Shown here one piece after another: positions 1,119-20,662 of a DNA stretch of 20,662 nt. Source of the DNA: a virus. A program made the position numbers and the translations under genes. Position 1 is the stretch's first letter; each line of letters begins with the position of its first letter. The DNA lies in IMG/VR virus record IMGVR_UViG_3300027782_000446, positions 1-20,662 of that record, one strand, 5' to 3'. The notes beneath the pieces are model-generated. The model saw only the letters and a list, made by a program, of their open reading frames with translations. It ran no database searches and was not told the DNA's origin.

Positions 1119-1147
1119 ATTATAATATAGATTAGTTATAAGGTCAA
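1119..1147 (-). promoter_or_regulatory. Near-consensus sigma70 promoter for the dNMP kinase gene
   Basis: On the reverse strand, TTGACC (1142-1147) is followed by exactly 17 bases and TATAAT (1119-1124). The -10 box is perfect and the -35 box differs from consensus only at its last base. Transcription would start near 1112, giving a leader of roughly 14 bases containing the AGGGGA ribosome site. The -35 box overlaps the gp13 stop codon (1144-1146). Confidence 0.75.
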
Positions 1148-1902: not shown

Positions 1903-1907
1903 ACGAG

Positions 1908-1915
1908 TATTTATC
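1908..1915 (-). promoter_or_regulatory. Late-promoter-like box GATAAATA for gp13
   Basis: The reverse strand reads GATAAATA, ending 5 bases before the gp13 ATG. It matches the T4 late consensus TATAAATA at 7 of 8 positions. With T4 spacing the transcript would start at or next to the start codon. Confidence 0.5.
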
Positions 1916-1920
1916 GTAGC

Positions 1921-1928
1921 GGTAAATA
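1921..1928 (+). promoter_or_regulatory. Late-promoter-like box GGTAAATA for gp14
   Basis: GGTAAATA ends one base before the ATG at 1930 and 7 bases before the second ATG at 1936. It lies back to back with the gp13 box, with only 5 bases between them, forming an imperfect inverted repeat centred near 1918. Confidence 0.45.
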
Positions 1929-1929
1929 T

Positions 1930-5538: not shown

Positions 5539-5880
5539 ATGCCGATAAGAGAATATGGCTGTGCTGAATGCAAAAATAACTGGGAAGAAATTCGGCGAGA
5601 TCAATCAGATCCTAGCAACTGTCCTAATTGTAATAGTACGTCTGTTAATCGAATGTTATCAGCAGCAGCACTACATTTTAAAGGAGCTAATTGGACCAAG
5701 CCGGAAAGCAAACCTGAATTTAATGTGTCAGTAAACCCGTTAGGGAAAACACACGATGAGAAATTTAAAGTAGTTGAAAAAACGCCAACGAATACCAAAG
5801 AAGCTCAAGAATTTCACAGAGAAGCTACAAAAATAAACGGTCCGTTGGCTGCTGAAAAATCACCGCCTTCTACAAAGTAA
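5539..5880 (+). CDS. FmdB-type zinc ribbon protein
   Basis: The N-terminus 'MPIREYGCAECKNNWEEI' with C8/C11, a second pair C28/C31 and then 'RMLSAAALHFKGANW' is the classic FmdB/CxxC-CxxC zinc ribbon family pattern (about 50 residues). In bacteria this family is linked to regulation of formamidase/amidase genes and is otherwise poorly defined. The remaining 60 residues are Lys/Pro/Thr-rich and look disordered. It is the last gene of the gp14-gp15 unit, its stop overlaps the stop region of the converging 2OG gene by 11 bases, and a hairpin follows at 5899-5925. In phages, transcript or DNA binding is a guess. Confidence 0.75.
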   Translation: MPIREYGCAECKNNWEEIRRDQSDPSNCPNCNSTSVNRMLSAAALHFKGANWTKPESKPEFNVSVNPLGKTHDEKFKVVEKTPTNTKEAQEFHREATKINGPLAAEKSPPSTK

Positions 5881-6493
5881 CTCGATTGTCTACCCCGCTT
5901 CTTCCTAAAACTCCTTTAGGAAGAATATCAAAAGACATACTCCAACGAGAATCTGATCTAATAGTATGCACACCGTGCCAAAGATATGAGGGAAATAATA
6001 TCATTCTTCCCTTTTGAGATTTAAAGGAAAATGTATTTGAAAGATATCGATTGCTTGCTCCTGGCATTTTGTTAGGAACAAACATAGATGCAGCCGGACG
6101 AGGGTCATAGAGCATTAATTCGCCGTCATGTCCTGAATATTGTGTAGGATAATACACTCCACTCATCCAACTATTAGGATGATTATGCATCGGGTGAGTT
6201 GCACCGGAAGACAGTCTAGTTGCCCACATGCCTGAAATATCTAAATCTTCTACTTGCCATCCAAGTCCATTTATCTGTGATTGAACAGTGATTTTAATCC
6301 AATCTATAAATTTTTTTATTTCGGGTATTGTGTGCAGTGTTGAGTCTGTTTGGTGATGTTCGGGCAATTGTGCTGGTAATAGTTTTGACTGTATTGCAGT
6401 CATTAAGGGTTGTTCCCAAGCATCCGCTAATTGTTCCGGAGCGTCAATGCACCAAACCACTGTTGGGAAAAGTTCTAATCGTTCTATGTTCAT
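5870..6493 (-). CDS. 2OG-Fe(II) oxygenase-like protein A (PF13759 type)
   Basis: The preferred start is the ATG at 6493 ('MNIERLELFPTVVW'), the usual opening of this family and one base after the stop of the upstream gene; a longer reading from 6562 would overlap that gene. The 207-residue product has H103-x-H105 in 'HPMHNHPNSWMSGVYY' and a second site H173 in 'SYLWHGV', with R183 ten residues later. These are the iron-binding residues and the 2-oxoglutarate-binding arginine expected in this family. Such proteins hydroxylate or otherwise oxidise a substrate using O2 and 2-oxoglutarate; the phage members have no known substrate. It ends the five-gene group that contains Hal1. Its C-terminus converges on the FmdB-type gene. 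Confidence 0.8.
   Translation of the reverse strand: MNIERLELFPTVVWCIDAPEQLADAWEQPLMTAIQSKLLPAQLPEHHQTDSTLHTIPEIKKFIDWIKITVQSQINGLGWQVEDLDISGMWATRLSSGATHPMHNHPNSWMSGVYYPTQYSGHDGELMLYDPRPAASMFVPNKMPGASNRYLSNTFSFKSQKGRMILFPSYLWHGVHTIRSDSRWSMSFDILPKGVLGRSGVDNRVTL
5899..5925 (+). terminator. Hairpin downstream of the FmdB-type gene
   Basis: TTCTTCCTAAA (5899-5909) and TTTAGGAAGAA (5915-5925) form a perfect 11-bp stem with a 5-base loop, 19 bases after the + strand stop codon. No T tract follows, so it may mark or protect the 3' end rather than terminate well. On the other strand it lies inside the coding end of 2OG protein A. Confidence 0.4.
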
Positions 6494-6494
6494 A

Positions 6495-7118
6495 TTATTT
6501 AAGCTGTGTATTAAATGCAATAATGGTTCTTTTTTTATCCGATCTGTAAGGCATACCTTCATGTCGAATATAAGAAGGAAATATAATCAATAATCCGTCA
6601 CCTGGCTCATAGGCAATATTTGATTCAGCATCAACAAATAATGTACCAGCATCACTATAATGATTATACGGCAATGGACTATAAAAACGAGTGTGGCCGT
6701 GTTTGTGAGTATCACTCACATCAAGATAGTATATACCACTCCATGAAGAATTTGGGTGGCCGTGATAATGATTATAATACTCAGACGAACTCCAGGCCCA
6801 CATGTCAGTTATAGACACTGTTGGGGTATTTGTTAAATTTTTCCAAAATTTTTCGTTTACTTGGTGTGCGGCCGTGTAAACACACTTTTCAAACCATTTA
6901 GATAATCTAGATAATTTAGGATTATTTTTAAGGTCTTCACTCATTCCGGAGTATGGATCAGCATTCTTTCTTTCAGAATCTGGTATCATTACTGAAACTT
7001 CTTTATTATTTTTTTTACACCAATTTTCACATTCTGCTAGGATTTCTTGATGATCTTCCCATATCATATGAAAATGAAATATTGGTGTTGACCAATAATT
7101 AAATTGATTTATGGACAT
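6495..7118 (-). CDS. 2OG-Fe(II) oxygenase-like protein B (PF13759 type)
   Basis: The 207-residue protein opens with 'FNYWSTPIFHF' and carries H119-x-H121 in 'NHYHGHPNSSWSGIYYL', a late H186 in 'SYIRHEGMPYRSD' and R197. This is the same layout as protein A, but the rest of the sequence differs greatly, so the two are distant paralogues, not a recent duplication. It is expected to use Fe(II), O2 and 2-oxoglutarate in the cytoplasm. A Shine-Dalgarno AGGAA lies 9 bases before the start. It follows Hal1 by 17 bases and precedes protein A by one base, so all three are likely made from one message. Confidence 0.8.
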   Translation of the reverse strand: MSINQFNYWSTPIFHFHMIWEDHQEILAECENWCKKNNKEVSVMIPDSERKNADPYSGMSEDLKNNPKLSRLSKWFEKCVYTAAHQVNEKFWKNLTNTPTVSITDMWAWSSSEYYNHYHGHPNSSWSGIYYLDVSDTHKHGHTRFYSPLPYNHYSDAGTLFVDAESNIAYEPGDGLLIIFPSYIRHEGMPYRSDKKRTIIAFNTQLK

Positions 7119-7135
7119 TACAAAGTATTCCTATA

Positions 7136-8845
7136 TTAATTTAAATATTCGTTATATAAAAATGTTGCCGGATTCAGCGTGTTAGTATTAGAACTGTTAA
7201 TAAAATATTCTAAAAATTCATGCTGGTTAATCAAAGGCAGTGCGTATTCAACATGTTTCTTATATAACAATTGTCGTCTTGTGTATTTGCCTAATGCTAG
7301 TGCTTCTAATGTTGTTAAGTCTTTAGCTGATAGTTTTTTTGATAAACTTTGAAATGATACTTGAGTAGATTGTATCATTCTTTGAAGATTTAAATCGCTC
7401 CATAGGAAACTGTCAATGCCGCCGTCTGTTAGGTCTTCCCAATAATTATTACCGGCTGCTAGCAGTCCAAAACTCCACGATCCAAAAATATTAGAGGATC
7501 CCCAATTATTAAAAAAATCTTTAGCCCACTGTGTCGATATGTCTTTTTTGTTTTTAAAGCTTCGCCAATATTCTGTATCATCTCTTTCGCTCCATGTGTA
7601 GTGACATAACACATACTTAACTGTTGTATCAAATAATTTATTAACATGCAAAGTCAATGCTTCTGCTTTTTGATAATCCCATATAAATTTAGTTCCTGGC
7701 TGTACTTCCCACGAATGCGAAATCTCCCAAGGATCCCACTTGACCATTTCGACCTCCGATGTAGGAGTTCCATTGGCCATCAAATTTAAGGTAGACACTA
7801 GTGCTGCATGACTCAAAAAGATTGATGTACTTTCCAATGGTTCGATAAACCCTGCGCAAAGTCCTGATAATACCCAGTTGGGGCCTGCATGTTTTTTGCT
7901 TTGATGAGTATGAAATTTAATCAATCTTAGATCTTCTTTGGTAAATCTATTATCGTAACTTTTGATAAATTCATCTATTGCGTCTTCGTCTGAAATAAAT
8001 TCAGAAGAATACACATATCCAGTGCCTAATCTCTCCTGTTGCCCAATACTCCATCGCCAACCAGCAGACATCCCTTTGCATTCAACTGACGACAGATACG
8101 GTAACTCTGTTTCACGATCGATATAAGGTATTTGTGTTGCAATTGCACGATTATTTGGGATAAGATCCGTGTAAGAAATTTCTTCTAGGGTCAATGCTGT
8201 TGGAATTAATTTATGAAATCCAGAACAATCGATATAGAAATCCCAAGACATGGTTCCATTATTTGCTAATTCTAATGAAATGATCTCCCCAGATTCTAAA
8301 GAATTTATTTTTTGAATTTTATCCTTGATAAAGGTACATCCTCGATCTGCTGCAACTTTTTTAAACTCTTCAGCTAGTTTTATAGCATCGATATTCCACG
8401 CATATTCTGGCCATACTGAGTAATCTAATTCTTTATCAATAACAAATGGTGATTTACCATGCTCAGAAAAATATATAGGAGCAAACGATTCCCAGAATTC
8501 CTTGTCTGAAAAGTTATATTTTTCTTTTAAAGAAATATCTAAACTGTGACTAGCAACCGGTGTGAAGTATGAATGATCTTTTTTATAAAAATCTTTTAAT
8601 CTTACCGCACATTTTACCGTAGCATCGGCCTTTCCAAACATTACTCGAAATACATCCAACTTTACTAGTTTTAAAAAAGCATTAATGTGTCCAACTGTGG
8701 CTTCGCCAACTCCAATTGGGCCTATTTCTGTATCATCGATTTGAGTTACTTCGACACCGTGTGGAGCTAAATGAGTTTGAAATAATAATGCTGCACTGGC
8801 ACCAGCGGTTCCACCGCCAATTATACAGAGTTTTTTAATGTTCAT
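7136..8845 (-). CDS. Flavin-dependent tryptophan-type halogenase Hal1
   Basis: The 569-residue protein (start ATG at 8845; a TTG at 8857 would also be in frame) has the FAD-binding GGGTAG at residues 10-15, 'GVGEAT' at 45-50, K78 in 'VKCAVRLKDF' at the place of the catalytic Lys79 of PrnA, W263-x-W265-x-I267 of the WxWxIP motif (the following Pro is Gly268), and 'EPLEST' with E338-S339 matching the PrnA Glu346-Ser347 region. The family uses reduced FAD, O2 and halide to make hypohalous acid and halogenate substrates, often tryptophan. A cyanophage relative (VirX1 from Syn10) is known to iodinate diverse substrates. Its start overlaps the stop of 2OG protein C by one base. The substrate is unknown. 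Confidence 0.9.
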   Translation of the reverse strand: MNIKKLCIIGGGTAGASAALLFQTHLAPHGVEVTQIDDTEIGPIGVGEATVGHINAFLKLVKLDVFRVMFGKADATVKCAVRLKDFYKKDHSYFTPVASHSLDISLKEKYNFSDKEFWESFAPIYFSEHGKSPFVIDKELDYSVWPEYAWNIDAIKLAEEFKKVAADRGCTFIKDKIQKINSLESGEIISLELANNGTMSWDFYIDCSGFHKLIPTALTLEEISYTDLIPNNRAIATQIPYIDRETELPYLSSVECKGMSAGWRWSIGQQERLGTGYVYSSEFISDEDAIDEFIKSYDNRFTKEDLRLIKFHTHQSKKHAGPNWVLSGLCAGFIEPLESTSIFLSHAALVSTLNLMANGTPTSEVEMVKWDPWEISHSWEVQPGTKFIWDYQKAEALTLHVNKLFDTTVKYVLCHYTWSERDDTEYWRSFKNKKDISTQWAKDFFNNWGSSNIFGSWSFGLLAAGNNYWEDLTDGGIDSFLWSDLNLQRMIQSTQVSFQSLSKKLSAKDLTTLEALALGKYTRRQLLYKKHVEYALPLINQHEFLEYFINSSNTNTLNPATFLYNEYLN

Positions 8846-9426
8846 CAAATATTCCAACTTACTGAATATCTAGTATCATCGTTCCAACTTGGCCCGACTC
8901 CGTGAGTCAACCACGCAGGAAATAATACCATCAACCCTTTTTTTGGAACTACCCTATATTCATGATTGTTCCAGTGGGTCATCCTTCCATCTGTAAACAC
9001 TGTTACTCCTCCAGGTGCTTTGTTGGGATGAGGATTACGCTGTACAGGATCCCAATCGTTTAAGTACAGGACTCCGCTAAATTGATAAGAATGTACATGA
9101 GGTGGGTTCCAATCGTATTTTTCCATTCTGTTAGCCCACATATACTTTATATCGAATCCGGTTATTGAGCCTTTTCTCCCGGTGTCTATCAAGCTCACGA
9201 TATATGTTGCCATATTTGACTTTATTGCAGTTTCTAATTCGGGAAAGGTTCCTATATCGATTATATATTCTCCGCTGATTTGTCCCACTAAATTAAACGC
9301 AGCCATATGGTCAGTATCGGTTTTTTCATTTATCCAATTGATAATTTTGTCACATATTGTTTCATCTATATAACATTTGTACAATGCTGTGCTAAACGGC
9401 ATTATAAATTCAGGTTGGTTAGACAT
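8845..9426 (-). CDS. 2OG-Fe(II) oxygenase-like protein C (PF13759 type)
   Basis: The 193-residue product has H110-x-H112 in 'WNPPHVHSYQFSGVLYL', H175 in 'AWLTHGVGPSWND' and R186. These are the iron ligands and 2-oxoglutarate-binding Arg of the family. A Pro-Gly insertion between the two sites ('NPHPNKAPGGV') sets it apart from proteins A and B. GGAGAG about 7 bases upstream supports the start. Its start overlaps the companion gene upstream by 8 bases and its stop overlaps Hal1 by one base, so translation of all three is probably coupled. The substrate cannot be told from the sequence. Confidence 0.8.
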   Translation of the reverse strand: MSNQPEFIMPFSTALYKCYIDETICDKIINWINEKTDTDHMAAFNLVGQISGEYIIDIGTFPELETAIKSNMATYIVSLIDTGRKGSITGFDIKYMWANRMEKYDWNPPHVHSYQFSGVLYLNDWDPVQRNPHPNKAPGGVTVFTDGRMTHWNNHEYRVVPKKGLMVLFPAWLTHGVGPSWNDDTRYSVSWNI

Positions 9427-10153
9427 CTAAATCTCTCCGGTCTATTTTATAAGTTGTTTGTTCATAAAAGTATTTGCCGACTCCTACAAATTTTAGCCAA
9501 ATTTGAGTAAGCAATTTACTATTTCTTGTCTTATCTGATTCTGTAGTTTCTCTGCTAATTGCTGTTATATTTTCTCTCTTAAAAGGAACAATCTGAACCA
9601 ACGGAGTCCCCATCTTAATGGTAAAATCTTTTGGTTCTTTGATCATAATATTAATAGGACATTCTAAATGACATTTATCAGATTCGAGAACACCGGGCAC
9701 AGCATGAAATGGGTGATCCCAAAACATCAACGGAAGAAAGGTACAACTGTATCCGGGGGCGGTTTGAATCCACCAAGGTTGATTTATTTTAATAACTCCT
9801 CGATACTTGTAATCAGGCAACAGATTTCCCAGTTGAATAGAACTATGTCCGTCAGTTTTAAATTTTGGATTGCTATACACCGCTCTTGCTTTTGATCCAT
9901 CCTGAAAGCCATCTTCTGAAAATTGAATATCGATATCGCAAGGCGCACAAATTATATACCCAGAATCTAGCCATGCTCCGAGTGCAGGACAGACTTTAGC
10001 AGTAGTCATATGTTGATTTTTATACGTGAAAAATCCTTTGAGATTTTTCCAGGCTTCGGGTTGTATTTCGGAAGCAGGTAATACAGGAACATGTTTTCTT
10101 ACAGCATAGTCGCTACAGATAAATTCTATGATCGGTTTCTTTTTTAAAAACAT
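9419..10153 (-). CDS. Companion protein of halogenase clusters (possibly DUF6065-like)
   Basis: The start ATG 10153 is chosen over a GTG at 10183 because AGGA stands 6 bases upstream. The 244-residue protein has 'QPWWIQTAPGYSCTF', 'DHPFHAVPGVLESDK', 'PINIMIKE' and 'GTPLVQIVPFKRE'. This pattern of beta strands and turns recalls a conserved protein of marine phages and bacteria (I recall it as DUF6065) that often lies near halogenase and 2OG genes. No catalytic motif, signal peptide or membrane segment is visible. It is the first gene of the group and overlaps protein C by 8 bases. A cupin-like or substrate-binding role is possible but unproven. The family name is from memory. Confidence 0.5.
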   Translation of the reverse strand: MFLKKKPIIEFICSDYAVRKHVPVLPASEIQPEAWKNLKGFFTYKNQHMTTAKVCPALGAWLDSGYIICAPCDIDIQFSEDGFQDGSKARAVYSNPKFKTDGHSSIQLGNLLPDYKYRGVIKINQPWWIQTAPGYSCTFLPLMFWDHPFHAVPGVLESDKCHLECPINIMIKEPKDFTIKMGTPLVQIVPFKRENITAISRETTESDKTRNSKLLTQIWLKFVGVGKYFYEQTTYKIDRRDLDV

Positions 10154-10161
10154 ACAAGTCC

Positions 10162-10169
10162 TATAAATA
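10162..10169 (+). promoter_or_regulatory. Perfect T4-type late box TATAAATA for 2OG gene D
   Basis: TATAAATA matches the T4 late consensus at all 8 bases and lies 29 bases before the ATG at 10199, in the 45-base gap between divergent genes. A transcript would start near 10175, with a leader of about 24 bases. No clear Shine-Dalgarno is seen in that leader. Confidence 0.5.
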
Positions 10170-10198
10170 AATTCTACTAACACTATAATTTATCTACT

Positions 10199-10816
10199 AT
10201 GCACATTACAAACGTTGATCCTGACACAAACATCTATAATCCTTTTCCGTCTTTTATATATAGAACAAAATTAAATGTTGATATTCAAGAATTGGAAGAG
10301 AAGATTGAAAAGTTGGTTAACCGAGATAGTAACTGGACTATGTTCTCTAGTCATTTCACGCATCGCAGTTTGGAAAATATAGATCCAATTTTTGCCGAAG
10401 TGTCCCGTCAGTTTGCAGCACACGCTAATAGATTTTATTGCCTATCTAAAAATGTTAACCTTGTAAATATAATGGCTACTAAACGTATGTGGTTCAATGT
10501 ATATCGTCAGGGGGGTTATATGAGACCGCACGATCACTACGAAGCGTATTATGGAAGTAGTTTGTATGTCAAAACAAATAAAACTAGTCGCATTTTGTTT
10601 ACACACCCTAGTCAGATTAAGTTTAATACAGTGTACGAAGTTGACCCGCTACCCGGAGAATTATTGATTTGGCCAGGATGGATGTTACACGAAGTGTCGC
10701 CTAATCTAGAACCAGACGACGAAAGAATAGTTATGAGTGCAAAACTTGACTATAAAGCGTCGCATTTTGATTTAGATAATCGGAGAGTTGATCAAGATAT
10801 ATTTGACGACCTATAA
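10199..10816 (+). CDS. 2OG-Fe(II) oxygenase-like protein D (PF13759 type)
   Basis: The 205-residue protein carries H111-x-H113 in 'GGYMRPHDHYEAYYGSSLYV', H164 in 'WPGWMLHEVSPNL' and R176, the iron and 2-oxoglutarate site of the family. The first half has its own start block 'NPFPSFIYRT' and is not similar to the other three oxygenases beyond the motif. It is the only + strand gene in the tailoring block and sits between Hal2 and the companion gene. It carries a perfect late-type box upstream and a hairpin overlapping its stop (10815-10847). Its end overlaps the Hal2 end by 25 bases. The inversion suggests separate acquisition or local inversion. Confidence 0.78.
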   Translation: MHITNVDPDTNIYNPFPSFIYRTKLNVDIQELEEKIEKLVNRDSNWTMFSSHFTHRSLENIDPIFAEVSRQFAAHANRFYCLSKNVNLVNIMATKRMWFNVYRQGGYMRPHDHYEAYYGSSLYVKTNKTSRILFTHPSQIKFNTVYEVDPLPGELLIWPGWMLHEVSPNLEPDDERIVMSAKLDYKASHFDLDNRRVDQDIFDDL

Positions 10817-12342
10817 CTTTTAACAAATTCTGTAGATGTTAAAAGTTTTTCAGAGTAGCGATTTACTAATTTTAAATCTTCTTCATAAAGATGATCTGCA
10901 TATAATTCACCGTTATATCTTTTTAATTCCTTTTGGCAGACATCGGGCGACAACTTATTTAAATTAGCTAAGACTACATTGTATAGTGGACTTCCAATAT
11001 ATCCCATATAGCCTAACCAGTCCGAGTTTTTAGGCGGTCTTACTTTTGCTATATCAAGAAGTTGTTTTACAAAATCTGTTTGTGTTGCGCCCGACGAAAT
11101 ATATTTCCAAAATTCTGTGTCTGTTCTACCACCCATATAATGTATAACTAGGAAATCTCTCATGTCATCATACATTTTACCCATTAACTCGTTATAACGT
11201 TTTTCGTTACCTTCATTAAGACAATTCGCATCATTAAAGAAAGAAAAACAAAAAGCATGTAACTGAACAATTGTGGTATGAATACTTGTTGCTTCTAACG
11301 GTTCAGCAAATGCAGCGGCAAGGCCAACGGTGAGCACGTTTTTATGCCAAAACTTCTCCATCCTTCCGGTATCAAACTTTAAAAATCTAATAGGTTCTAT
11401 TTTTGTTCCTAATACAGTTTCTATTTCTTGTTGTGCTTGTTCGTGTGTTGTAAAATTATCATCAAATACATAACCGCATCCTACCCGATTAGCAGTTGGG
11501 ATTTGCCACATCCATCCATTTTTTTGTGCCCATGCAGTGGTATAATTTGCAATTGGGTCATCTGGCTTGTGAGGTAAAATAAAAGGCATTGCTGTGTTAA
11601 CAGGAAGATTATCTTTGTAACTTTTCCATTTAATTCCATATTCTTTGCCTAGTATTAATTTAGCAAACCCAGTGGCGTCAACAAAAAAGTCTCCATCTAT
11701 TACATCACCGTTATCAAGAATAACTGATTCTAAAAATCCGTTTTCTTTCATTTTAACAGTTTTCACAATAGCATCGATATGTGTTACATTATCTTTTTCA
11801 CATACTGTTTTAAAATACTGTCCTACTTTATGTGCATCAAAATGATAGGCATGACTGTTTAAGCTCAATGCATTAGCAGTTAGATGAGACGAGACGTTTG
11901 TTGTTCTAATCATATTTTCATCTTTAGAGAAAAATGTTGATTTACCGTTTTCTAATAAAATCCCGTTTCGTGTGCTAGTGTGTATCTTTAAGTTATTTGC
12001 AATGGTATGTAACTGTATGTAATCAATTATTGCTCCGCTGGTGCTACTAGCATCAATCGGACCAAAGTATTCAGATGTTGTGTCTTTCCAATGTTTGTGT
12101 TTAATTCCGAGTTTAGGAGTACTACCTGTAAATTTTAAAAATTCTTCTTCATTGCAGTCAAAATTCCACATTCTATTTTGTATGATATCAGACATTATTC
12201 CTGTGCTGCCTTCACCGGCACCAACAATTCCAATTTTACTCGATTCAATGACTGTGATATTTCGGTCTTTACCGTGAATTTTTTTTAAAAACAGTGCTGC
12301 CAACCAGCCAGCTGTGCCGCCGCCTATAATTACAATTTTCAT
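10792..12342 (-). CDS. Flavin-dependent halogenase Hal2
   Basis: The 516-residue enzyme begins with GGGTAG (7-12) and 'GAGEGSTG' (41-48). It has K77 in 'STPKLGIKHKHW' at the catalytic Lys position, W277-x-W279-x-I281-P282 (complete WxWxIP), 'DATGF' near 222-226 and 'EPLEAT' (E347-T352) with E350 in the place of PrnA Glu346 but Ala351 in the place of Ser347. The C-terminal 'GGRTDTEFWKY' block is shared with Hal3. The gene overlaps the upstream Hal3 by 4 bases (ATGA), a sign of translational coupling. It is the only one of the three with the intact WxWxIP motif. Both are members of the family that includes the phage halogenase VirX1; target and halide are unknown. Confidence 0.9.
   Translation of the reverse strand: MKIVIIGGGTAGWLAALFLKKIHGKDRNITVIESSKIGIVGAGEGSTGIMSDIIQNRMWNFDCNEEEFLKFTGSTPKLGIKHKHWKDTTSEYFGPIDASSTSGAIIDYIQLHTIANNLKIHTSTRNGILLENGKSTFFSKDENMIRTTNVSSHLTANALSLNSHAYHFDAHKVGQYFKTVCEKDNVTHIDAIVKTVKMKENGFLESVILDNGDVIDGDFFVDATGFAKLILGKEYGIKWKSYKDNLPVNTAMPFILPHKPDDPIANYTTAWAQKNGWMWQIPTANRVGCGYVFDDNFTTHEQAQQEIETVLGTKIEPIRFLKFDTGRMEKFWHKNVLTVGLAAAFAEPLEATSIHTTIVQLHAFCFSFFNDANCLNEGNEKRYNELMGKMYDDMRDFLVIHYMGGRTDTEFWKYISSGATQTDFVKQLLDIAKVRPPKNSDWLGYMGYIGSPLYNVVLANLNKLSPDVCQKELKRYNGELYADHLYEEDLKLVNRYSEKLLTSTEFVKSYRSSNIS
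10815..10847 (+). terminator. Hairpin overlapping the stop of 2OG gene D
   Basis: AACTTTTAACA (10815-10825) pairs perfectly with TGTTAAAAGTT (10837-10847), with an 11-base loop, and is followed by TTT on the + strand (a TTTTT run including the stem end). It is AT-rich but has the form of a factor-independent terminator. On the opposite strand it is inside the coding end of Hal2. Confidence 0.5.
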
Positions 12343-13880
12343 AAATTATTATCTTTCATATATGCTCTAATAAATGTATTATTGTCTATGCATTTATCTG
12401 CAACCATGCTCATTATTTTATTTTGATATCGCCACTCGGACTCTGCTAACCGTTCTGCATTACACAATTTTAGCTCAGCTGCTGCAACTTCCGGTGAAAT
12501 TTTTCCTAGTCCATGCAATACTACATTATACAACGGAGTTCCAACTCCACCAAAGTAACTGTTAAAATCAGAACTGCGTGGTGGTCGATTTTTGCAAATT
12601 TCTAATATATTTTTTACAAACGGTGTTTTGGCTTCGTCTGTCGCCATGTACTTCCAAAATTCTGTGTCTGTTCTGCCACCCACATAATGCACATTAATAA
12701 AATCTGCATAATCGTCATACATCTGACCCATGCTGGTATTGTATTCATCGGCCACCACTGGATCATTGATATCGTGAGATAGACTTTCTTTACAAAATTT
12801 CCATAATTGCACTATTGTGCTTTGTATACTTGTGGCTTCCAACGGTTCGGCAAACCCTGCTGCTAATCCAATAGCTAATACATTTTTATGCCATAACGTT
12901 GTGTGTCTTCCAGTGTCGTATTTTAAAATTTTAATAGGTTGAATTTCATGACCCAACACTGATTTAATTTCCTCTTGTGCTTTGTCGTCCGAAGTAAACT
13001 CACTAGAATACACATACCCACAGCCCAATCGGTCCTGTGTCGGTGTTTGCCACATCCACCCGTGTTTTTGCGCCCATGCTTTCATATACACGGGAATTTT
13101 AGTATCCTCAGTATGAGGAATTAAAAAAGGCATTGCTCGATCTACTGGCAAATGTTTCTTATAACTTTTCCAAGGAATATCATATATACCTTTAAAAATA
13201 AGTTTTTTAAATCCAGTGGCATCAACAAAAAAGTCTCCAGCCACTTCTGCTCCTGATTTAGTTTTTAAGTATGAAACATTGCCGTCTTCGGACAAAGTAA
13301 CACCAGTCACTTCATCGTCAATGTATGTCACTCCTGTGCTTACACACATTTTTTTAAAATATTTTCCTACCTTGTGTGCATCAAAATTGTATGCATGACT
13401 GTAAAGTCCGGGCCCAGAAGAAATTGTAGGTCCGGTATTTACTATTACTTTTGATATATTGTGATTAAGGAATGTGCTTTTATTTTTTTCAGCCAAATGA
13501 CCATTTTGCGTTGATAAATGAACCGGAAGATTATTAGCCATGGCATGCAGCTGAATAATATCGACGGGTGCGCTGCCAGTTTTTGAATCATCGATAGGGC
13601 CAAAAAATCCGTCCCCCACTTGTTTCCAATCTTGATGAAGAATTGCCACTTTTAAACAACTAGCGGTTTCTTTAAAAAACTCAACCTCATCGCAGCCAAA
13701 GTTCCAAAGTCTGTTATGCACAATATCGGTCATGAGACCAGTACTGGCTTCACCGGCTCCTAACGGGCCAATCTTTGAACTATCAACTACCGTCACCGAT
13801 GTAACTTTCTTGTTAATTTTTTTAAAAAATAAGGCAGCTAGCCATCCGGCAGTTCCACCACCAACAATAACCACGTTCAT
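12339..13880 (-). CDS. Flavin-dependent halogenase Hal3
   Basis: The 513-residue enzyme is clearly a paralogue of Hal2: 'GGGTAGWLAALF' at the start, 'SSKIG..GAGE.STG', 'NRLWNFGCDE' and 'GGRTDTEFWKY' are shared. It has K77 in 'CLKVAILHQDW' at the catalytic Lys position, W275-x-W277-x-T279-P280 (the Ile of WxWxIP is Thr), and 'EPLEAT' with E348. AGAGG about 8 bases upstream supports the start. It is the first gene after the terminator at 13932-13956 and leads the Hal3-Hal2 unit. The 50-base gap upstream shows no good sigma70 pair or late box, so how it is transcribed is unclear. Confidence 0.9.
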   Translation of the reverse strand: MNVVIVGGGTAGWLAALFFKKINKKVTSVTVVDSSKIGPLGAGEASTGLMTDIVHNRLWNFGCDEVEFFKETASCLKVAILHQDWKQVGDGFFGPIDDSKTGSAPVDIIQLHAMANNLPVHLSTQNGHLAEKNKSTFLNHNISKVIVNTGPTISSGPGLYSHAYNFDAHKVGKYFKKMCVSTGVTYIDDEVTGVTLSEDGNVSYLKTKSGAEVAGDFFVDATGFKKLIFKGIYDIPWKSYKKHLPVDRAMPFLIPHTEDTKIPVYMKAWAQKHGWMWQTPTQDRLGCGYVYSSEFTSDDKAQEEIKSVLGHEIQPIKILKYDTGRHTTLWHKNVLAIGLAAGFAEPLEATSIQSTIVQLWKFCKESLSHDINDPVVADEYNTSMGQMYDDYADFINVHYVGGRTDTEFWKYMATDEAKTPFVKNILEICKNRPPRSSDFNSYFGGVGTPLYNVVLHGLGKISPEVAAAELKLCNAERLAESEWRYQNKIMSMVADKCIDNNTFIRAYMKDNNL

Positions 13881-13931
13881 TTATTAACCTCTTAGCTGTC
13901 TATTATGTATCTTTAGTAGTATTTGAATATG

Positions 13932-13956
13932 AGAAAAGCGGCACCGCCGCTTTTCT
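13932..13956 (-). terminator. Strong hairpin terminator between tail genes and halogenase block
   Basis: AGAAAAGCGGC (13932-13942) and GCCGCTTTTCT (13946-13956) form a perfect 11-bp stem with a 3-base loop. The A-rich and T-rich arms make it usable from both directions. It lies between the last tail-region gene (ending 13977) and Hal3, and should end the tail-gene message. Confidence 0.8.
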
Positions 13957-13976
13957 TAACTTACTGTTTTGATGAT

Positions 13977-14261
13977 TTAAGACGGAAATGGTGCGTCTGG
14001 ATTAAACTGCTCGGTTGGATATTTCGGTGTAGCTAGTGGGTTTCTTGCAATCCATGCCAATGCCGCTTGGAGTTTATCAGTTGGTATAGATTCGACGTTG
14101 GGATTTATTACGCTGTATTCTACTTCCAAATTATACAGCTTGTCGATGATAGTGCCTATTCGGTGCCCAGTTGCCAGTGTAATCCATTCTTTTGGATCCG
14201 TTGCTACAAAATTAAATGCTTTGTCTTGTGCAGGTGTAAGTGTTACTGAAATAGTTTTCAT
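13977..14261 (-). CDS. Small protein of tail-gene region, paralogue of neighbour
   Basis: The 94-residue protein has 'MKTISVTLTPAQDKAF', 'DPKEWITLATGHRIGTIIDKLYN' and 'IPTDKLQAALAW'. Its order of LT, DPxxW, HR, helix and IPxD matches the next gene upstream (14265-14525), so the two look like distant duplicates. CCAGGAG about 9 bases upstream supports the start. No enzyme motif, signal or membrane segment is seen. Small proteins of this type often follow tail-fibre genes in marine phages; a role in tail assembly is a guess. Confidence 0.6.
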   Translation of the reverse strand: MKTISVTLTPAQDKAFNFVATDPKEWITLATGHRIGTIIDKLYNLEVEYSVINPNVESIPTDKLQAALAWIARNPLATPKYPTEQFNPDAPFPS

Positions 14262-14264
14262 GTA

Positions 14265-14525
14265 TTAAACTCCTGGAATAGTAGGTGGTGCTGGAATTTC
14301 TTTGTCTTTCAAGGCAGGAAGTACGCTGGCCAATATTGCAGCATCTCTATCAGCCGGTACAGTTTTTCCTGTTTTTAATGCATCTTGAATTTCTTCTTTA
14401 AACATTTCTTCAACCGCAACGTTTGCTCTGTGTACAAATAACCCAGATACCCAATGTTCCGGATCGTGATAGTATGAAAGTATCGTGTACTCTTCATCTG
14501 TTAATTCTATAGTATATGTTGCCAT
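14265..14525 (-). CDS. Small protein of tail-gene region, paralogue of neighbour
   Basis: The 86-residue protein 'MATYTIELTDEEYTIL' is mostly helical, with 'DPEHWVSGLFVHRANVAVEEMF', a basic/acidic helix and a Pro-rich tail. It resembles the following gene in the order of motifs. A TAGGAGA ribosome site and an AATAAATA box (14546-14553) precede it, so it may head its own late transcript within the tail region. The function is not recognised. Confidence 0.6.
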   Translation of the reverse strand: MATYTIELTDEEYTILSYYHDPEHWVSGLFVHRANVAVEEMFKEEIQDALKTGKTVPADRDAAILASVLPALKDKEIPAPPTIPGV

Positions 14526-14553: not shown

Positions 14554-15111
14554 TTAACCTAGATAGGTTACGCAAAATCCTGAATGATATCCACCGTGCC
14601 ACTGTCCCGAATCACTTACAGTAAATCCAAAATTATCACCTGCACTGGCAGGAAACGTTACTGTGGCATGCGCTGTTTTCCACGATCCGCCTGCTGCATA
14701 GTGATAGGCAGTGTATACTGGCGCTGCGCCGGTCCATGTACCGCCGTTGATGCTGATATATCCGTGCCAGCGATTGTTGCCGTCCGGATAAACGATACTC
14801 CAAAACTGAATAAGATACAGTCCAGCTATTGGTGCATAGTATTTGTTGTTTGTCAAATTCATTCCGGACGTTGTACTAGAGTTGACTCCTATAAAGTCGC
14901 CTTCACCGCCTACGCTGTAAATTGCATCAAAGTCAACGTTGCCAGTATAATACTTTGCATTATTATCAGCAATACCGGCTGTTCCTACAGGTTGACGATG
15001 AATTCTAACCTTGCCGTTGGTATCCATGTTCATTACATCAAAGCTGCCGTTGTTGACGTTGAATCCGCCTGAACTGTCTGTGATTTGAATACCGTTTAAA
15101 TTTAATCCCAT
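14554..15111 (-). CDS. C1q-like tail protein 1
   Basis: The 185-residue protein has a short linker N-terminus ('GIQITDSSGGFNVNNGSFDVMN') and a C-terminal beta-sandwich of C1q/TNF-like type: 'NLTNNKYYAPIAGLYLIQFW', 'GYISINGG' and a terminal 'WHGGYHSGFCVTYLG'. Phage C1q-like domains usually sit at fibre tips and bind receptors. It is one of three tandem genes with the same layout, with no catalytic motif. GGATAATA upstream and spacing suggest it is translated with its neighbours. Confidence 0.65.
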   Translation of the reverse strand: MGLNLNGIQITDSSGGFNVNNGSFDVMNMDTNGKVRIHRQPVGTAGIADNNAKYYTGNVDFDAIYSVGGEGDFIGVNSSTTSGMNLTNNKYYAPIAGLYLIQFWSIVYPDGNNRWHGYISINGGTWTGAAPVYTAYHYAAGGSWKTAHATVTFPASAGDNFGFTVSDSGQWHGGYHSGFCVTYLG

Positions 15112-15115
15112 GATA

Positions 15116-15637
15116 TTATCCTATTTGGAAGCAGACTAGGCCGCTGTGATAACTACCGTGATAGTATGTTCCGTTTTCGATGTACATCCGCCAATTATCG
15201 GCTGCATTCAATGCATCAGTAATAGACATGTTAGTGGTACTCCAAGCTGCTGAGGCTCGACCTAGAGTGGTCCTTGTGGGATAATTGATCCCGTATCCGC
15301 CGCCATTTTTATAAAAGTTTCCGTTGAAATCATTGTTATTTCCAGTAATGCTTCCCCAGTAGGCATAGTAAATTCCAGTAATTGGGGCCACAAAGTAATT
15401 ATTTGTTGTGGCATTGTTACCGAATGAACTTTGGTTCACTGACAAGGCAGTCAACGGATAAGTTCCTGTGTTAGTTACCTGACTAACGTTGTGCCAAGTG
15501 CCCTGTGCTGCTGGTAAATTATATTTCCGTAGATAACCTGCAGTTGTGATTTCTGCTGCCACCGCAGAGTTTGTATAAAATTGCAGTGCATCGCCGCTGG
15601 CATTCAGCTGAGCATTTGTTCCAAAATCGTATCCCAT
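15116..15637 (-). CDS. C1q-like tail protein 2
   Basis: The 173-residue protein has an N-terminal fibre-like segment ('NASGDALQFYTNSAVAAEI'), then 'YFVAPITGIYYAYWGS', 'FYKNGGGYG' and a terminal 'YHGSYHSGLVCFQIG'. It is the same family as the neighbours on both sides, with the terminal Trp replaced by Tyr in the HGSYHSG motif. AGGA stands about 5 bases before the start. The gap to protein 1 is 4 bases, so this is a tight gene array. Confidence 0.65.
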   Translation of the reverse strand: MGYDFGTNAQLNASGDALQFYTNSAVAAEITTAGYLRKYNLPAAQGTWHNVSQVTNTGTYPLTALSVNQSSFGNNATTNNYFVAPITGIYYAYWGSITGNNNDFNGNFYKNGGGYGINYPTRTTLGRASAAWSTTNMSITDALNAADNWRMYIENGTYYHGSYHSGLVCFQIG

Positions 15638-15638
15638 A

Positions 15639-16184
15639 TTATCCTACCATCCAAAATGTTAAACCGCTGTAATGGCCGCCGTGCCACCCGCCACTTGCAG
15701 AGCTGCCACAAACAACGGCAATCCAATCTCCTGATGCTAGCAACATCGTAATACCGCAACTTGAAGTTCCCCACGACCCTGTATGATACCCGTAGGCAGC
15801 ATATGGTGCTCCACTACCAATTGGACACTGTCCGCCGTTTTTATAAAAAACGTGCTGCGAACCACCCGGTGTTGAGATAGTTGCCCACTCGAAGTGATAG
15901 ACTCCTCTTACCGGTGCTGTAAATCTACTGGCGCTTGAAGTTGTGTTAGTTAGGTTGTAGTGTGATCCATTATTGAACCCGCTGATATCCAATGGCGTGT
16001 AGTTTCCACTATAGGTCAAGCCACCGTTGCTTGAGTGGGTGGCTACCCCTGCAGGTTTGTATTGCTGGCGCAATCTGCCATCGGCAAGTACAGTAAATGC
16101 TGATCCAGATTGTCCTGCGGGCTTCATTTCGATCGCCCCACTGCTACCTTGAATATAGTTACCTGAACCAAAATTGATAGGCAT
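15639..16184 (-). CDS. C1q-like tail protein 3
   Basis: The ATG at 16184 ('MPINFGSG') has GGGAG about 7 bases upstream and follows the preceding gene by one base; a longer reading from 16223 would overlap that gene. The 181-residue protein has 'FTAPVRGVYHFEWAT', 'FYKNGGQCPIG' and a terminal 'WHGGHYSGLTFWMVG', as in the two neighbours. The beta-sandwich is likely a trimeric fibre tip. Its N-terminus ('GAIEMKPAGQSG..LADGRL') is of the collagen-free linker type common in marine tail fibres. Confidence 0.65.
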   Translation of the reverse strand: MPINFGSGNYIQGSSGAIEMKPAGQSGSAFTVLADGRLRQQYKPAGVATHSSNGGLTYSGNYTPLDISGFNNGSHYNLTNTTSSASRFTAPVRGVYHFEWATISTPGGSQHVFYKNGGQCPIGSGAPYAAYGYHTGSWGTSSCGITMLLASGDWIAVVCGSSASGGWHGGHYSGLTFWMVG

Positions 16185-16185
16185 A

Positions 16186-17307
16186 TTAAGCTCCCGGAAT
16201 TGCCGCTTTCTTAGCAGGAACAACAGATTTGTCTACTTCCTGTAACAAGAACTTGTACGTTTTTCCATTTTTGTTGTTGTAAATGAATAGATCTTCCTCA
16301 CCCTCGACTATGGTATAATCACCAATACCGTTGCTTAGTTCCAAGTCAGTGGTGTAAATTGTAGACCAGCGTAAGCTGGCTGTACCTAAGTTATATGTAT
16401 TGTTTGCACCAGGATTTACTCCACCGCAGACAATCGCACTTGCACCTGCACCTGCTGACCAACCACCAAAGTAATAGGCATTGTCTGTGTTAAAAGTGAT
16501 CTTTGAAGCATACACTCCCGGACGATGGAAAGCCAATGACGGTCTTGAAGTTCCGCCGTTGTCTTGTATTTCCATGTTTGAAGTACTATTAGTTAAATCT
16601 GCACCGGAGCCGAAGAGCGTCTGAATCTTTCCGCCAGTAAACAATGCTCCGCCTACACCAATGCCGCCGCCAACTCTTAAAGCGCCAGTTGTTGAACTGC
16701 TACTTGCTGTGGTTTCGTCAATGTATACCTGTCCTTTTGTGGCATCAGTGGTAGATCGTAGGGTCAGTGTTGCACTTGCTGCGGTACCACCAGTTACTAT
16801 CGAAGTTCTTAAATCACCTGTGCTGGGCACAAATGACAGGTTTGATCTAACTAAAGGACTTAATGAAGTTGGTATTGACCCAGACGCTGTTCCAAAAAAC
16901 GGATAGTGTACTGTGGCTGTGGATCCAGAATCGCTTACCGGAATATTTCCACCTGCGCTGGCCCAAGTTAAATTACCACTGGTATCGGAAGTTAACACAA
17001 ACCCACTAGTGCCCGATACTGCCGCGGGCCAAGTAATGGTATAGTTTGCAGCCATAGTAGCTGCGGCCTGCATAGCAATGTAGTTGGTACCGTTGCCTGT
17101 GGCTTCTCTGAGTCGAAGATCTCCTTGGTTGGCCAAGGTTAAATCACCGGTGATCACTATGTCGGAATTGACATTAGTCACTCCAGTGCCGTTTGGATCT
17201 AGAGTAATATCCTGATTAGTCTGCGATGAGCTCAGTGTAGCAGCACTGGCCTGTATGTTACCAATTTTTTCTAGGCCTGTGGTTTGCCCGCTGGTTCTTC
17301 GTCCCAT
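16186..17307 (-). CDS. Tail fibre / structural protein
   Basis: The 373-residue protein has modules seen in marine phage fibres: 'LRLREATGNGTNYIAMQA', 'YTITWPAA.SGTSGFVL', 'GALRVGGGIGVGGALFTGG' and a C-terminal 'TYNLGTASLRWSTIY' followed by 'NGIGDYTIVEGEEDLFIYNNKNGK'. The last part is a common end of such fibres. It is Ser/Thr/Gly-rich and has no enzyme motif. AAGGCGG before the start is a good ribosome site. It is the longest fibre-like gene before the C1q cluster and may be the shaft to which those proteins bind. Confidence 0.7.
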   Translation of the reverse strand: MGRRTSGQTTGLEKIGNIQASAATLSSSQTNQDITLDPNGTGVTNVNSDIVITGDLTLANQGDLRLREATGNGTNYIAMQAAATMAANYTITWPAAVSGTSGFVLTSDTSGNLTWASAGGNIPVSDSGSTATVHYPFFGTASGSIPTSLSPLVRSNLSFVPSTGDLRTSIVTGGTAASATLTLRSTTDATKGQVYIDETTASSSSTTGALRVGGGIGVGGALFTGGKIQTLFGSGADLTNSTSNMEIQDNGGTSRPSLAFHRPGVYASKITFNTDNAYYFGGWSAGAGASAIVCGGVNPGANNTYNLGTASLRWSTIYTTDLELSNGIGDYTIVEGEEDLFIYNNKNGKTYKFLLQEVDKSVVPAKKAAIPGA

Positions 17308-17662: not shown

Positions 17663-20662
17663 TTAATTATTTAAAAAGTAGTTCCAAGCTACTGGGTAAC
17701 CTCTTACTCCCGCCCGGAAGTCAAAGGTAGCTTTCATAGCTATGGTGCCGCCTGTGGTAGTAGTTATCTGTGTACCTGAAACACTGATAAAACCAGCCAC
17801 TAAGCTATTTACGTTCAAAGCTGCTCCACCGCCACCAATCTGTGCAGAAATATATGCTCTAATTGCTCGCTGTGTGGCTACAACGCTGTCTGAATTAGCT
17901 GTTAAGAATGGATCTGTGCTAAATTCAGTGATTGTAGCTGAGTTTCCGCCTAGTGTGATGTTACCTAAACTTAGTTCTGCTAGACCTGCAATGTTAAATG
18001 CATCAGCATTCAATGTTGCAACACCAGTCGATTGTTCAATAGTAAACAATTCACCAACTCGGAAGTTACCGTCTTGGTCAGTGGAAGTATAGAATACACG
18101 ACCACCGTTGTTGTCCACGGTTTCGTTGGCCTGTATAGCAGGCTGTGTGGGCAGTCCTGGATAGTTGGTTTCTACAAAGTTACCTGTACCGATATCTAAG
18201 AAGTCGTGTCCTGTTAGTCTAACCTGACTATATCGGATTCGAGTAGTTATTGCTGTGCTATCTGCAGGAGCATTGAACTCACTCATGCTCGGCGAAAGTT
18301 GGAAGAATGCTGCTCTTGCACCATCTTCTGTGCCGCTTTCTGAAAGCACCTGAACCAATTTGTACACAGTGTTAGGTTGTGTGGCAAACACCACGTTGGC
18401 GCCTGCTCTAGGAGTACCAGTCAGTCTCTTAACGCCAACAAATCTACCACTTTGGAAATTATTACCGTATCCGTCACCTTGATCTATTTCTACTATGGCT
18501 GCATCAAACCCTGTGCCTCTATTTTTAAAGCTGACGTTAGCACATGCTCCGTTGCCTATTCTCACTGAAGTAGGAGCTTCATACAAATTGTTAGGATCAG
18601 TTATGGTAATGGTTGGAGCAACACTATAAGTACTTCCAGGATCTGTCACACGTATAGCATAAATCTTATTGTCTGAAACAAATGCACGAGCTTTGGCAGT
18701 GGCGCCTAGTATGGCGCTTGAGGCTGCTGTGGTTGATGCTGAAGGAATAATAGCCCATATACCTGTTTGACTAGGATTACCATGCACCGCTTTTAAAGCA
18801 CCGGTGCCTGAAGCACGAGTGATTGCTCTTGTGGTCCATACAACTCCGTCTCCTGAACTGCTCATGTTGTTGCTGCTGCTCTGCGTGACCAAGAAAATAC
18901 CTTGTCCGTAGGTCACACGAGTCGATGTACCCGATCCAATATAACCGCTGACTCCAGTCGAACTCCATGTTACCCCTTTGTCCACACTCCATGCTGGATT
19001 CACAGAACCATCACTAGATACTACAACAAATTTATTAGCACCATAAACCAAGCCGCTCCATGATGAGCTAGACGGTAATGTGCCGCCTGCAGTCCATGTT
19101 ACTCCGCCGTCCGCGCTGTAGGCGCTGGTGTTGAAAAGAGAGCTGACTACCATCCATACACCTTGACCATAAGCGATGCTGGTCCCTGTGCCTCCTGGTG
19201 TGGTGCCCCCTACAGTCCAAGATACGCCACCGTTGGTTGAATAAGCAGTGGTTCCGTCAAATCCTAGAACTACCCAACGTGCTACTCCCGATACATTTCC
19301 GTAAGCAACACCAACAGCTTGTCCACTCAAAGCGCCTGGTAATGAACCACCCGAAGTCCATGTTGTTCCGCCGTCTGTTGAATATGCATTGACTGTGGTA
19401 CTAGAACTTACTGCTACCAAGTGATTGGCAATTGGAGTTGCTGTACCTGTGCCCGAACCTATTCCAGTAGCTACAAAATATGTACCGACTAGATTGGCAG
19501 TAGCTCCTATGCTAGTGAATACAGTATTACCTAGTGATGTGATAACATATGATCTACCTACCACAAAGGCCCCTGCAGTTTCTACTGTTGTTAATTTACC
19601 TGCAGCCATGCCAACCCAATTTGAAGTACTAGGCAATGATAATAAATTTTGACTCCATGTAGTACCGTTGGTAGAAGTATTGGTAGTTCTTGAACCACTA
19701 GCTATTGCTGCAAATTTGCCGCCTGCACCTACACCTGTGAATTCAAACGCGGTAATTGCTCCAGTTGTAGCATTAACTGCTGTTACTGTAACAGTAACAT
19801 CGTTGGCGCTTGATGCACCACCAAGGCTTGTGCCAACAATAGTAAGTGTGTCTAGTCTTGCATAGCCTGTACCTGCGCTAACAATATTAACAGCTGAATA
19901 TTTTATGCCTTTGCGAACCACAGTGAATGTAGCGCCTGTGCCGCTGCCGCTGGTTGTAGTTGAAATTGGCGAGTACACTGCAAAAGTTGGAGCGTAAGTT
20001 GCGTCAGTATAACTTTGAGCTGTACCTAATGTTCTTGCAGTACTGCTGTAAGTTGGTGCAGTAAATGTAACTCTTGGCTCGACCAAATAAGTAGATGAAG
20101 CATCTGGAGCCACAATAGCTGTACCTGGTACAACATGATCCCAACCTGCACCACCAGTGCTTTCTTTGGTCACTGTAGCCACTTTTGTTCCTGCGGTGAA
20201 ACTAGCGATAATACCAACTTGTCCTGCACCAGCGCCTGAAGTTACAATCAACTTCATACCCACATACGCACCGGTGATCTCGTCATCAGTAGCCGCTAAT
20301 GTCAGTTGAGTGGTTGTACCGCTCTGAGCAGTGTTAGCATTAGAAATATATCCACTACCACCTAGATTGCCGTCAACTTCTGGGGCTGTGGCGGAGTCGT
20401 CAACATTGTCAAGCAATCTAACTTGGAACACTGCACCGTCACGGAAATCGTCATGTTCAACACTGGCGCCTGCGCCGCCGCCCGACACAGTCCATGTAAT
20501 CTCAGTGTAGTCGGATCCAGCATTATCGTATTCGTATTGATATAATTTATCAATACCGTCTGTAAGCACACTTGCAACATCTGCAGTGTATGATTTATTA
20601 TCTACCGTACAGAGTATCGGAGTTTCAGTGACATCAAAACCTTCTGCTACGGATCCAAAATC
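17663..20662 (-). CDS. Giant tail protein with Asp-box repeats (5' end outside window)
   Basis: The frame stays open to the window edge: 31 further codons precede the GTG at 20569, beginning 'DFGSVAEGFDVTETPIL', so the gene is partial with at least 999 codons visible. It holds beta-strand-rich repeats, an Asp-box segment (18830-19390), a '(T)AGAFVVGRSYVITSLGNT' module inserted near 19440-19590 that recurs in marine phage structural proteins, and a C-terminal part with 'YSQVRLTGHDFLDIGTGN' and 'TSTDQDGNFRVGELFTIEQ' that is conserved in marine T4-like tail fibres. It probably forms a large fibre or baseplate-linked adhesin. Enzymatic activity is not indicated. Confidence 0.75.
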   Translation of the reverse strand, partial: DFGSVAEGFDVTETPILCTVDNKSYTADVASVLTDGIDKLYQYEYDNAGSDYTEITWTVSGGGAGASVEHDDFRDGAVFQVRLLDNVDDSATAPEVDGNLGGSGYISNANTAQSGTTTQLTLAATDDEITGAYVGMKLIVTSGAGAGQVGIIASFTAGTKVATVTKESTGGAGWDHVVPGTAIVAPDASSTYLVEPRVTFTAPTYSSTARTLGTAQSYTDATYAPTFAVYSPISTTTSGSGTGATFTVVRKGIKYSAVNIVSAGTGYARLDTLTIVGTSLGGASSANDVTVTVTAVNATTGAITAFEFTGVGAGGKFAAIASGSRTTNTSTNGTTWSQNLLSLPSTSNWVGMAAGKLTTVETAGAFVVGRSYVITSLGNTVFTSIGATANLVGTYFVATGIGSGTGTATPIANHLVAVSSSTTVNAYSTDGGTTWTSGGSLPGALSGQAVGVAYGNVSGVARWVVLGFDGTTAYSTNGGVSWTVGGTTPGGTGTSIAYGQGVWMVVSSLFNTSAYSADGGVTWTAGGTLPSSSSWSGLVYGANKFVVVSSDGSVNPAWSVDKGVTWSSTGVSGYIGSGTSTRVTYGQGIFLVTQSSSNNMSSSGDGVVWTTRAITRASGTGALKAVHGNPSQTGIWAIIPSASTTAASSAILGATAKARAFVSDNKIYAIRVTDPGSTYSVAPTITITDPNNLYEAPTSVRIGNGACANVSFKNRGTGFDAAIVEIDQGDGYGNNFQSGRFVGVKRLTGTPRAGANVVFATQPNTVYKLVQVLSESGTEDGARAAFFQLSPSMSEFNAPADSTAITTRIRYSQVRLTGHDFLDIGTGNFVETNYPGLPTQPAIQANETVDNNGGRVFYTSTDQDGNFRVGELFTIEQSTGVATLNADAFNIAGLAELSLGNITLGGNSATITEFSTDPFLTANSDSVVATQRAIRAYISAQIGGGGAALNVNSLVAGFISVSGTQITTTTGGTIAMKATFDFRAGVRGYPVAWNYFLNN
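18830..19390 (-). repeat. Asp-box (BNR-like) repeats in the tail protein
   Basis: Five repeats of about 42 residues carry the S-x-D-x-G-x-T-W type motif: STDGGTTW, STNGGVSW, SADGGVTW, SVDKGVTW and a degraded SGDGVVW, at DNA positions near 19370, 19230, 19106, 18978 and 18849. Each is preceded by 'YG.G.WV.V' strands. This is the pattern of a beta-propeller with Asp boxes, as in sialidases and other carbohydrate-binding proteins. Confidence 0.7.

Follow-up and report, generated by a model that had tools for sequence, protein, structure and literature searches.

The 20,662-base IMG/VR virus record IMGVR_UViG_3300027782_000446, a genome fragment that we analyzed over its whole length and hereafter refer to as the window, carries a set of eight genes (P1 to P8) predicted to encode three flavin-dependent halogenases, four 2-oxoglutarate (2OG)-Fe(II) oxygenases and a companion protein, P5. 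Enzyme genes of these families, with catalytic residues kept, recur in a conserved order in marine T4-like phages, linked to the tail fiber genes, and the content of the resulting island turns over between relatives. We propose, with a probability of roughly 0.4, that the set is a modular, fast-exchanged island that halogenates and hydroxylates the proteins of the receptor-binding fiber tip or some other component of the virus surface.

Recurrence of the island in marine phages

Single-sequence scans of IMG/VR for close relatives found no loci with P3 or P5 alone and four with P8. Because these scans gave none or few loci, profile queries were needed. The profile scans detected at least 573 relatives of the halogenases and 260 of P5 and gave the best 80 loci, on contigs (L numbers below) that are fragmentary and with some loci overlapping in origin. 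Upon mapping with hidden Markov models, 37 loci (5 from cultured cyanophages and 32 from IMG/VR; ~28 after dereplication) shared one gene order: fiber, Gly-rich tip paralogs, a small open reading frame (ORF; phrog_1787), one or more halogenases, P5 and then oxygenases. In Syn9, the halogenases gp41 and gp42 and the P5 homolog gp43 precede 2OG and JmjC genes, all behind the fiber and tip genes, and the same combination stands behind fiber and tip genes in S-RIM44, P-TIM40, S-CREM1 and Sf-CH3. P-RSM6, S-WAM1 and Sf-CH11 have versions of the island in which P5 was not detected. Eight loci besides the window hold at least three halogenases together with P5 and at least three oxygenases, and a single island in L008 contains eight diverged oxygenase genes.

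The window fits this order in one reading direction on its minus strand, except for P6 on the plus strand: fiber, three tip-like paralogs, small ORFs, two halogenases, the inverted P6, P5, an oxygenase, a halogenase and two oxygenases. As it recurs in order, the eight-gene set lies far beyond chance. An earlier note on this DNA had proposed a search of marine phages for co-occurrence of all eight families; halogenase, P5 and 2OG genes do recur in conserved order in dozens of them, but the eight genes do not recur as an identical set. The outcome that the note thought would count against a system, no recurrence together with inactive enzymes, or conservation of single genes with random neighbors, does not describe the 37 ordered loci.

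The canonical islands also encode JmjC_2/Cupin_8 proteins; PF08007 includes the protein hydroxylases YcfD, NO66 and MINA53. Between P5 and the first oxygenase, a conserved coiled-coil-like microprotein of 70-90 amino acids with the core LNPYGITSIDFxKRQ is present in L005 (14290-14511; Syn9 gp44, which has no Pfam match), L008 (12415-12636) and about 30 IMG/VR islands. We considered whether this ORF might be the precursor of a ribosomally synthesized and post-translationally modified peptide, and rejected the idea: the ORF is conserved and coiled-coil-like, lacks a core that is variable or rich in Trp, and does not occur in the window. No match to the phrog_1787 gene that precedes the halogenases (preH), to the gp44-like gene or to the cupin genes was found in the window, where P5 and P4 overlap directly. 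Syn9 gp52 (L005, 18864-19475), a canonical island gene whose annotation is minor coat protein, has a match to DUF6445 (E = 1.9e-13).

Predicted halogenases and oxygenases

P3, P7 and P8 match Pfam Trp_halogenase with E-values of 1e-71, 3e-94 and 5e-96, bearing out the earlier count of three halogenases. All three have the dinucleotide-binding motif GxGxxG in the form GGGTAG. The catalytic lysine (K79 of PrnA and of VirX1, the halogenase of cyanophage Syn10) is invariant in the 24 halogenases compared, and the active-site Glu of EPLE is kept in 22 of them, including these three (positions in Table 1). WxWxIP is intact only in P7, and its Pro is replaced in P3. Judged by sequence, the three are thus predicted flavin-dependent halogenases (PF04820) with their catalytic residues kept. 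P7 and P8, 52% identical, are tandem paralogs; P3 is 25-26% identical to either. In our trees, which are of FastTree quality, P7 and P8 cluster with halogenases from L173, L011, S-PM2 and Syn1 (support 99 and 97), and VirX1 belongs to another clade, one of 13 rows. P3 forms a long branch that pairs with another long branch and has no clear placement relative to VirX1.

The four oxygenases score 45-80 bits against PF13759 (gathering cut-off 27; E = 2e-22 to 2e-11). Their pairwise identity is 13-24%, and all retain the iron ligands HxH...H and the 2OG-binding Arg; the solved PF13759 homologs 3bvc and 2rg4 align with the same HxH. P1, P2, P4 and P6 are therefore predicted to be diverged members of one 2OG-Fe(II) oxygenase family, so that the four distinct oxygenases of the earlier note are four proteins but not four kinds. 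The three-His iron site HxH...H, as opposed to the usual HxD/E...H, is common to the PF13759 proteins of the window, L005-L023, 3bvc and 2rg4.

Linkage to fiber and tip genes

To avoid the bias of searching with the island itself, we sampled loci with the C-terminal part of the window fiber alone. In 44 of these loci the contig extends 8 kb or more downstream; among the 44, halogenases were found in 26, oxygenases in 34, P5 in 13, all three in 12 and none in 7.

Between fiber and halogenase, the canonical islands contain Gly-rich paralogs (phrog_863, tail fiber assembly), two to three of them in tandem. By eye, their Gly-rich make-up resembles that of gp38-type adhesins, which form a poly-glycine sandwich with hypervariable loops (PMC12892980). 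Exactly three tandem C1q-like paralogs are found in the window, L306 (11723-14616), L311 (8550-11415), L329 (11750-14578) and L342 (11729-14553). Halogenases follow the trio in the window, L306 and L311; the L329 and L342 contigs end before that point. A homolog of one of the two small ORFs that follow the trio in the window occurs in L306 and L329. By eye, the paralogs of L306, L311, L329 and L342 fall into ortholog classes A, B and C, which suggests a heterotrimeric fiber head. L271 (4028-9638) has an expanded array of about nine tandem tip-protein paralogs of ~170-190 amino acids between fiber and halogenase.

Turnover of island content

On the fiber tree, the presence of a halogenase switches at least 12 times. 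In the well-supported independent contrasts, P5 changes along with the halogenase in ~4.6 of 8, and in none does it change in the opposite direction (median p = 0.06). Gene number and halogenase lineage differ between islands. In L185, whose gp13 is 99% identical to that of the window, the visible island reads oxygenase-oxygenase-P5-oxygenase-oxygenase, with no halogenase in the visible part. The window relatives L189 (208-2190) and L207 (2366-4339) have genes for an RfaE/HldE-like cytidylyltransferase, a kinase and an epimerase in the same slot, named by eye from sequence starts; their presence suggests sugar decoration as an alternative cargo. Given these changing contents and the separation of the P7/P8 clade from that of VirX1, the slot is refilled with enzymes of different lineages.

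P5, a predicted dUTPase-fold protein

P5 matches phrog_7084 and has weak Pfam similarity to DUF6065 (PF19541). AlphaFold2, applied to an alignment of 51 sequences, modeled it with high confidence (pLDDT 88.5). The top Foldseek matches of the model are all dUTPases, and VIA-align gave a Z of 11.3 to 3lqw and a root mean square deviation of 2.3 Å over 115 residues to 8hrv_B. The model thus assigns a dUTPase fold to P5, for which the earlier note had correctly given one copy but no class. P5 is longer than members of the dUTPase superfamily and DUF6065. Its GxxDxD motif is recognizable, but the presumed catalytic Asp is Glu167 in the window, a position that is not fixed in the family; the motif was assigned by eye against dUTPase motifs. 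P5 probably has a role other than dUTP hydrolysis, perhaps in binding or scaffolding.

P5 homologs are also found in haloarchaeal tailed viruses (HF1 and its kin; L015, 5905-6789, is halophage HF1), and no halogenase is annotated near the HF1 homolog, which points to a broader role for P5. Since P5 occurs in these viruses and, in about 30 contigs, with an oxygenase only, it is not an obligate partner of the halogenase.

Organization of the window

The eight ORFs occupy 5870-13880 without large gaps, as first described, and Pfam and PHROGs sort them into three Trp_halogenase, four 2OG-FeII_Oxy_5/phrog_81 and one phrog_7084 protein (Table 1). The T4-like structural setting also held up, with gp13, gp14 and gp15 homologs at 1144-4904 and the fiber at the other end of the window. 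The overlaps cited for translational coupling are real (P8/P7, 4 nt; P5/P4, 8 nt; P4/P3, 1 nt with P3 starting at its listed ATG) but cover only some of the junctions. P1 probably starts at ATG 6493, directly past the P2 stop, rather than at 6562. P6 is divergent from P5 and convergent with P7 (25-nt antisense overlap), and its strand means that the eight genes are not one co-directional operon.

Table 1. Predicted features of the window around and within the eight-gene set
Feature	Position	Strand	Remarks
P1, 2OG-Fe(II) oxygenase (PF13759)	5870..6562	-	Pfam, active-site residues
P2, 2OG-Fe(II) oxygenase (PF13759), 207 aa	6495..7118	-	Pfam, active-site residues
P3, divergent flavin-dependent halogenase, 569 aa	7136..8845	-	start ATG 8845; Lys78, Glu338, WRWSIG
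P4, 2OG-Fe(II) oxygenase (PF13759), 193 aa	8845..9426	-	overlaps P5 by 8 nt
P5, dUTPase-fold protein, 254 aa	9419..10183	-	phrog_7084; distant DUF6065 kin
P6, 2OG-Fe(II) oxygenase (PF13759), 205 aa	10199..10816	+	HxH...H + Arg
P7, flavin-dependent halogenase, 516 aa	10792..12342	-	tandem paralog of P8; Lys77, Glu350, WMWQIP
P8, flavin-dependent halogenase (PF04820), 513 aa	12339..13880	-	GxGxxG, Lys77, EPLE Glu348, WMWQTP
Strong terminator-like hairpin	13930..13958	.	between tip/chaperone genes and P8; dG -16.6 kcal/mol, z -5.1
Two small ORFs (94, 86 aa)	13977..14525	-	homologs in L311 between tip genes and halogenases
Three tandem C1q-like paralogs (185, 173, 181 aa), probable fiber-tip proteins	14554..16184	-	weak C1q match, E = 0.03
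Fiber-associated protein	16186..17307	-	kept beside fiber in many relatives
Large tail fiber	17663..20662	-	full-length homology with fibers of island-bearing contigs

An Rfam search of the window gave no match, and promoter-like matches in it were not above chance. The only exact T4-type late-promoter-like TATAAATA of the window lies at 10162-10169 (+), 30 bases 5′ of P6. This TATAAATA may itself be a chance match, the late-promoter-like search as a whole being at chance level.

Proposed function and alternative explanations

The island probably alters the virus surface or something made with it. Three observations point to tailoring of tip proteins or another surface component: the position of the island, the JmjC_2/Cupin_8 proteins of the canonical islands, and the broad substrate range of VirX1, which prefers iodide and whose large, open active site takes bulky aromatics (PMC8407142). 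A further reason is that Pfam and PHROGs scans of the cassette ORFs found only side-chain tailoring enzymes, with no non-ribosomal peptide synthetase, polyketide synthase or transporter, and no other enzyme that would form a biosynthetic backbone. Among the targets that the earlier note had proposed, fiber proteins best suit this context, and free Trp has no positive evidence. Of the dedicated tailoring pathway that it envisaged, the recurrent, ordered enzyme module is supported, whereas its target is putative.

We hypothesize that the islands are versions of one fiber-linked, exchangeable tailoring slot in marine T4-like phages, the window being one of them. Late in infection, the halogenases would draw reduced flavin from the host and, with the 2OG-Fe(II) oxygenases, modify side chains of the fiber-tip receptor-binding proteins encoded next to them, or of a different surface component that is produced along with the tip proteins. 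P5 might serve as a non-catalytic partner or scaffold, and the altered tip chemistry could in turn alter adsorption. The narrower proposal, that marine T4-like phages, including the phage of VirX1, use this exchangeable module to diversify their own tip proteins chemically as a post-translational layer of host range, is tentative and somewhat less probable than the broader one.

Several findings weigh against such a function. P6 is inverted relative to the other genes of the set, and the hairpin at 13930-13958 divides the set from the upstream fiber genes. Contrary to prediction, tip proteins beside halogenases are not enriched in Trp (1.4% with a halogenase compared to 2.0% without, p = 0.09) or in Tyr (p = 0.29). 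They are enriched in Gly (p = 1.5e-4) and weakly in His (p = 0.03), which reflects tip type and is confounded by lineage. The halogenases of S-PM2, P-SSM2 and S-MbCM6 lie away from fibers, and the ~30 contigs with P5-oxygenase pairs but no halogenase have them adjoining gp13. The fiber linkage could be mere gene neighborhood.

An unlikely but serious alternative is that the enzymes produce or decorate a small molecule or signal bearing halogen and hydroxyl groups, with Trp, indole or a metabolite of the host as possible starting points, and that this compound protects or manipulates the infected cell. Most solved PF04820 relatives use free Trp, a cluster in the jumbo cyanophage S-SSM6a with halogenase, 2OG, carbamoyltransferase, cytidylyltransferase and RfaE genes has been interpreted as a pathway to a metabolite (PMC7824862), and papers on cyanophages usually suggest antibiotic protection (PMC2984593, PMC9964418). 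However, backbone-forming, carrier and export enzymes were not found among the cassette ORFs scanned, and the genes are consistently placed behind those for the fiber tip. P7 and P8 also lack the Ser that follows EPLE in PrnA.

To a similarly low degree we can envisage that the spot between fiber and neck genes is a hot spot of gene acquisition, with the 2OG and halogenase genes as independent auxiliaries in no joint pathway. Hypervariable spots are known in the structural module (PMC2984593, PMC3037559), and the contents of this one vary strongly even at 99% gp13 identity (L185). Among 26 sufficiently long relatives sampled by the neck gene gp13, at least one of the three families is present in 14, and a halogenase in only 5 of the 26. 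Random residents would not be expected to keep the strict order halogenase-P5-oxygenase, with P5 adjacent, in ~28 dereplicated loci, nor would P5 be expected never to oppose the halogenase in the independent contrasts.

Modification of a glycan or lipid, either host lipopolysaccharide (LPS) or capsule (for instance to block superinfection) or fiber-attached sugars, is less probable still. The RfaE/HldE-like and epimerase genes in the slot of L189 and L207 would fit it, as would the S-SSM6a cluster with halogenase and RfaE, also proposed for capsule decoration (PMC7824862), but sugar genes were not detected in most islands, and flavin halogenases require a target that is an activated aromatic or has comparable electron richness, which is unusual in LPS. 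That the oxygenases chiefly shift host metabolism by consuming 2OG, as proposed in PMC3037559 (2OG/NtcA), or serve nucleic-acid repair, as cited in PMC9146016, is very improbable, as it leaves the halogenases, P5, the fiber linkage and up to eight oxygenase genes per island (L008) unexplained.

If the target is the fiber tip, the island would let phages change their receptor binding by means of enzymes, and would give a reason for the many unexplained 2OG oxygenases of cyanophages. Even if it is a metabolite, the island defines genes to study jointly, including P5 and the gp44-like microprotein.

Comparison with known systems

The earlier note considered the set the best candidate for an undescribed system in the window. 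Halogenase genes and multi-copy 2OG genes have been treated as separate auxiliary genes (PMC9964418, PMC9146016, PMC10452541, PMC3037559), with antibiotic protection as the usual suggestion for cyanophages (PMC2984593, PMC9964418) and 2OG genes read as manipulation of 2OG/NtcA (PMC3037559). We found no link of these genes to fibers in the searchable literature, a search that largely excludes subscription papers. The set is undescribed only in part: the genes had been published separately, and VirX1 itself comes from such an island.

The S-SSM6a cluster shares phage-borne halogenase, 2OG and cupin enzymes with the islands and differs in its carbamoyltransferases, cytidylyltransferase and RfaE; the pathway proposed for it leads to a metabolite or to capsule (PMC7824862). 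P5 is not annotated there, and the 10 kb of sequence read contain no fiber gene. In S-CREM1 (ORF69-ORF80), a halogenase, a P5 homolog (ORF70) and an uninterrupted row of eight 2OG genes follow a Gly-rich tip protein. It differs in having a single halogenase, and its publication describes individual auxiliary genes rather than a system (PMC9964418).

A further counterpart is the VirX1/Syn9 island (gp41-gp54). Syn9 gp42 aligns with VirX1 (PDB 6qgm) over all 530 residues (1271 bits; gp41, 321 bits), and this end-to-end match places VirX1 in an island of this kind. Like the window, Syn9 has a T4-like phage halogenase beside a second halogenase, P5 and many 2OG/JmjC genes, after fiber and tip genes. 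The window differs in having three halogenases, two of them from the S-PM2/Syn1 clade and P3 divergent, an inverted oxygenase, and C1q-like instead of Gly-rich tips; the gp44-like and cupin genes of Syn9 were not detected in it. VirX1 has reportedly been characterized as a lone enzyme. For this well-known biocatalyst without a known natural role, the fiber-linked island provides a testable context for its biology.

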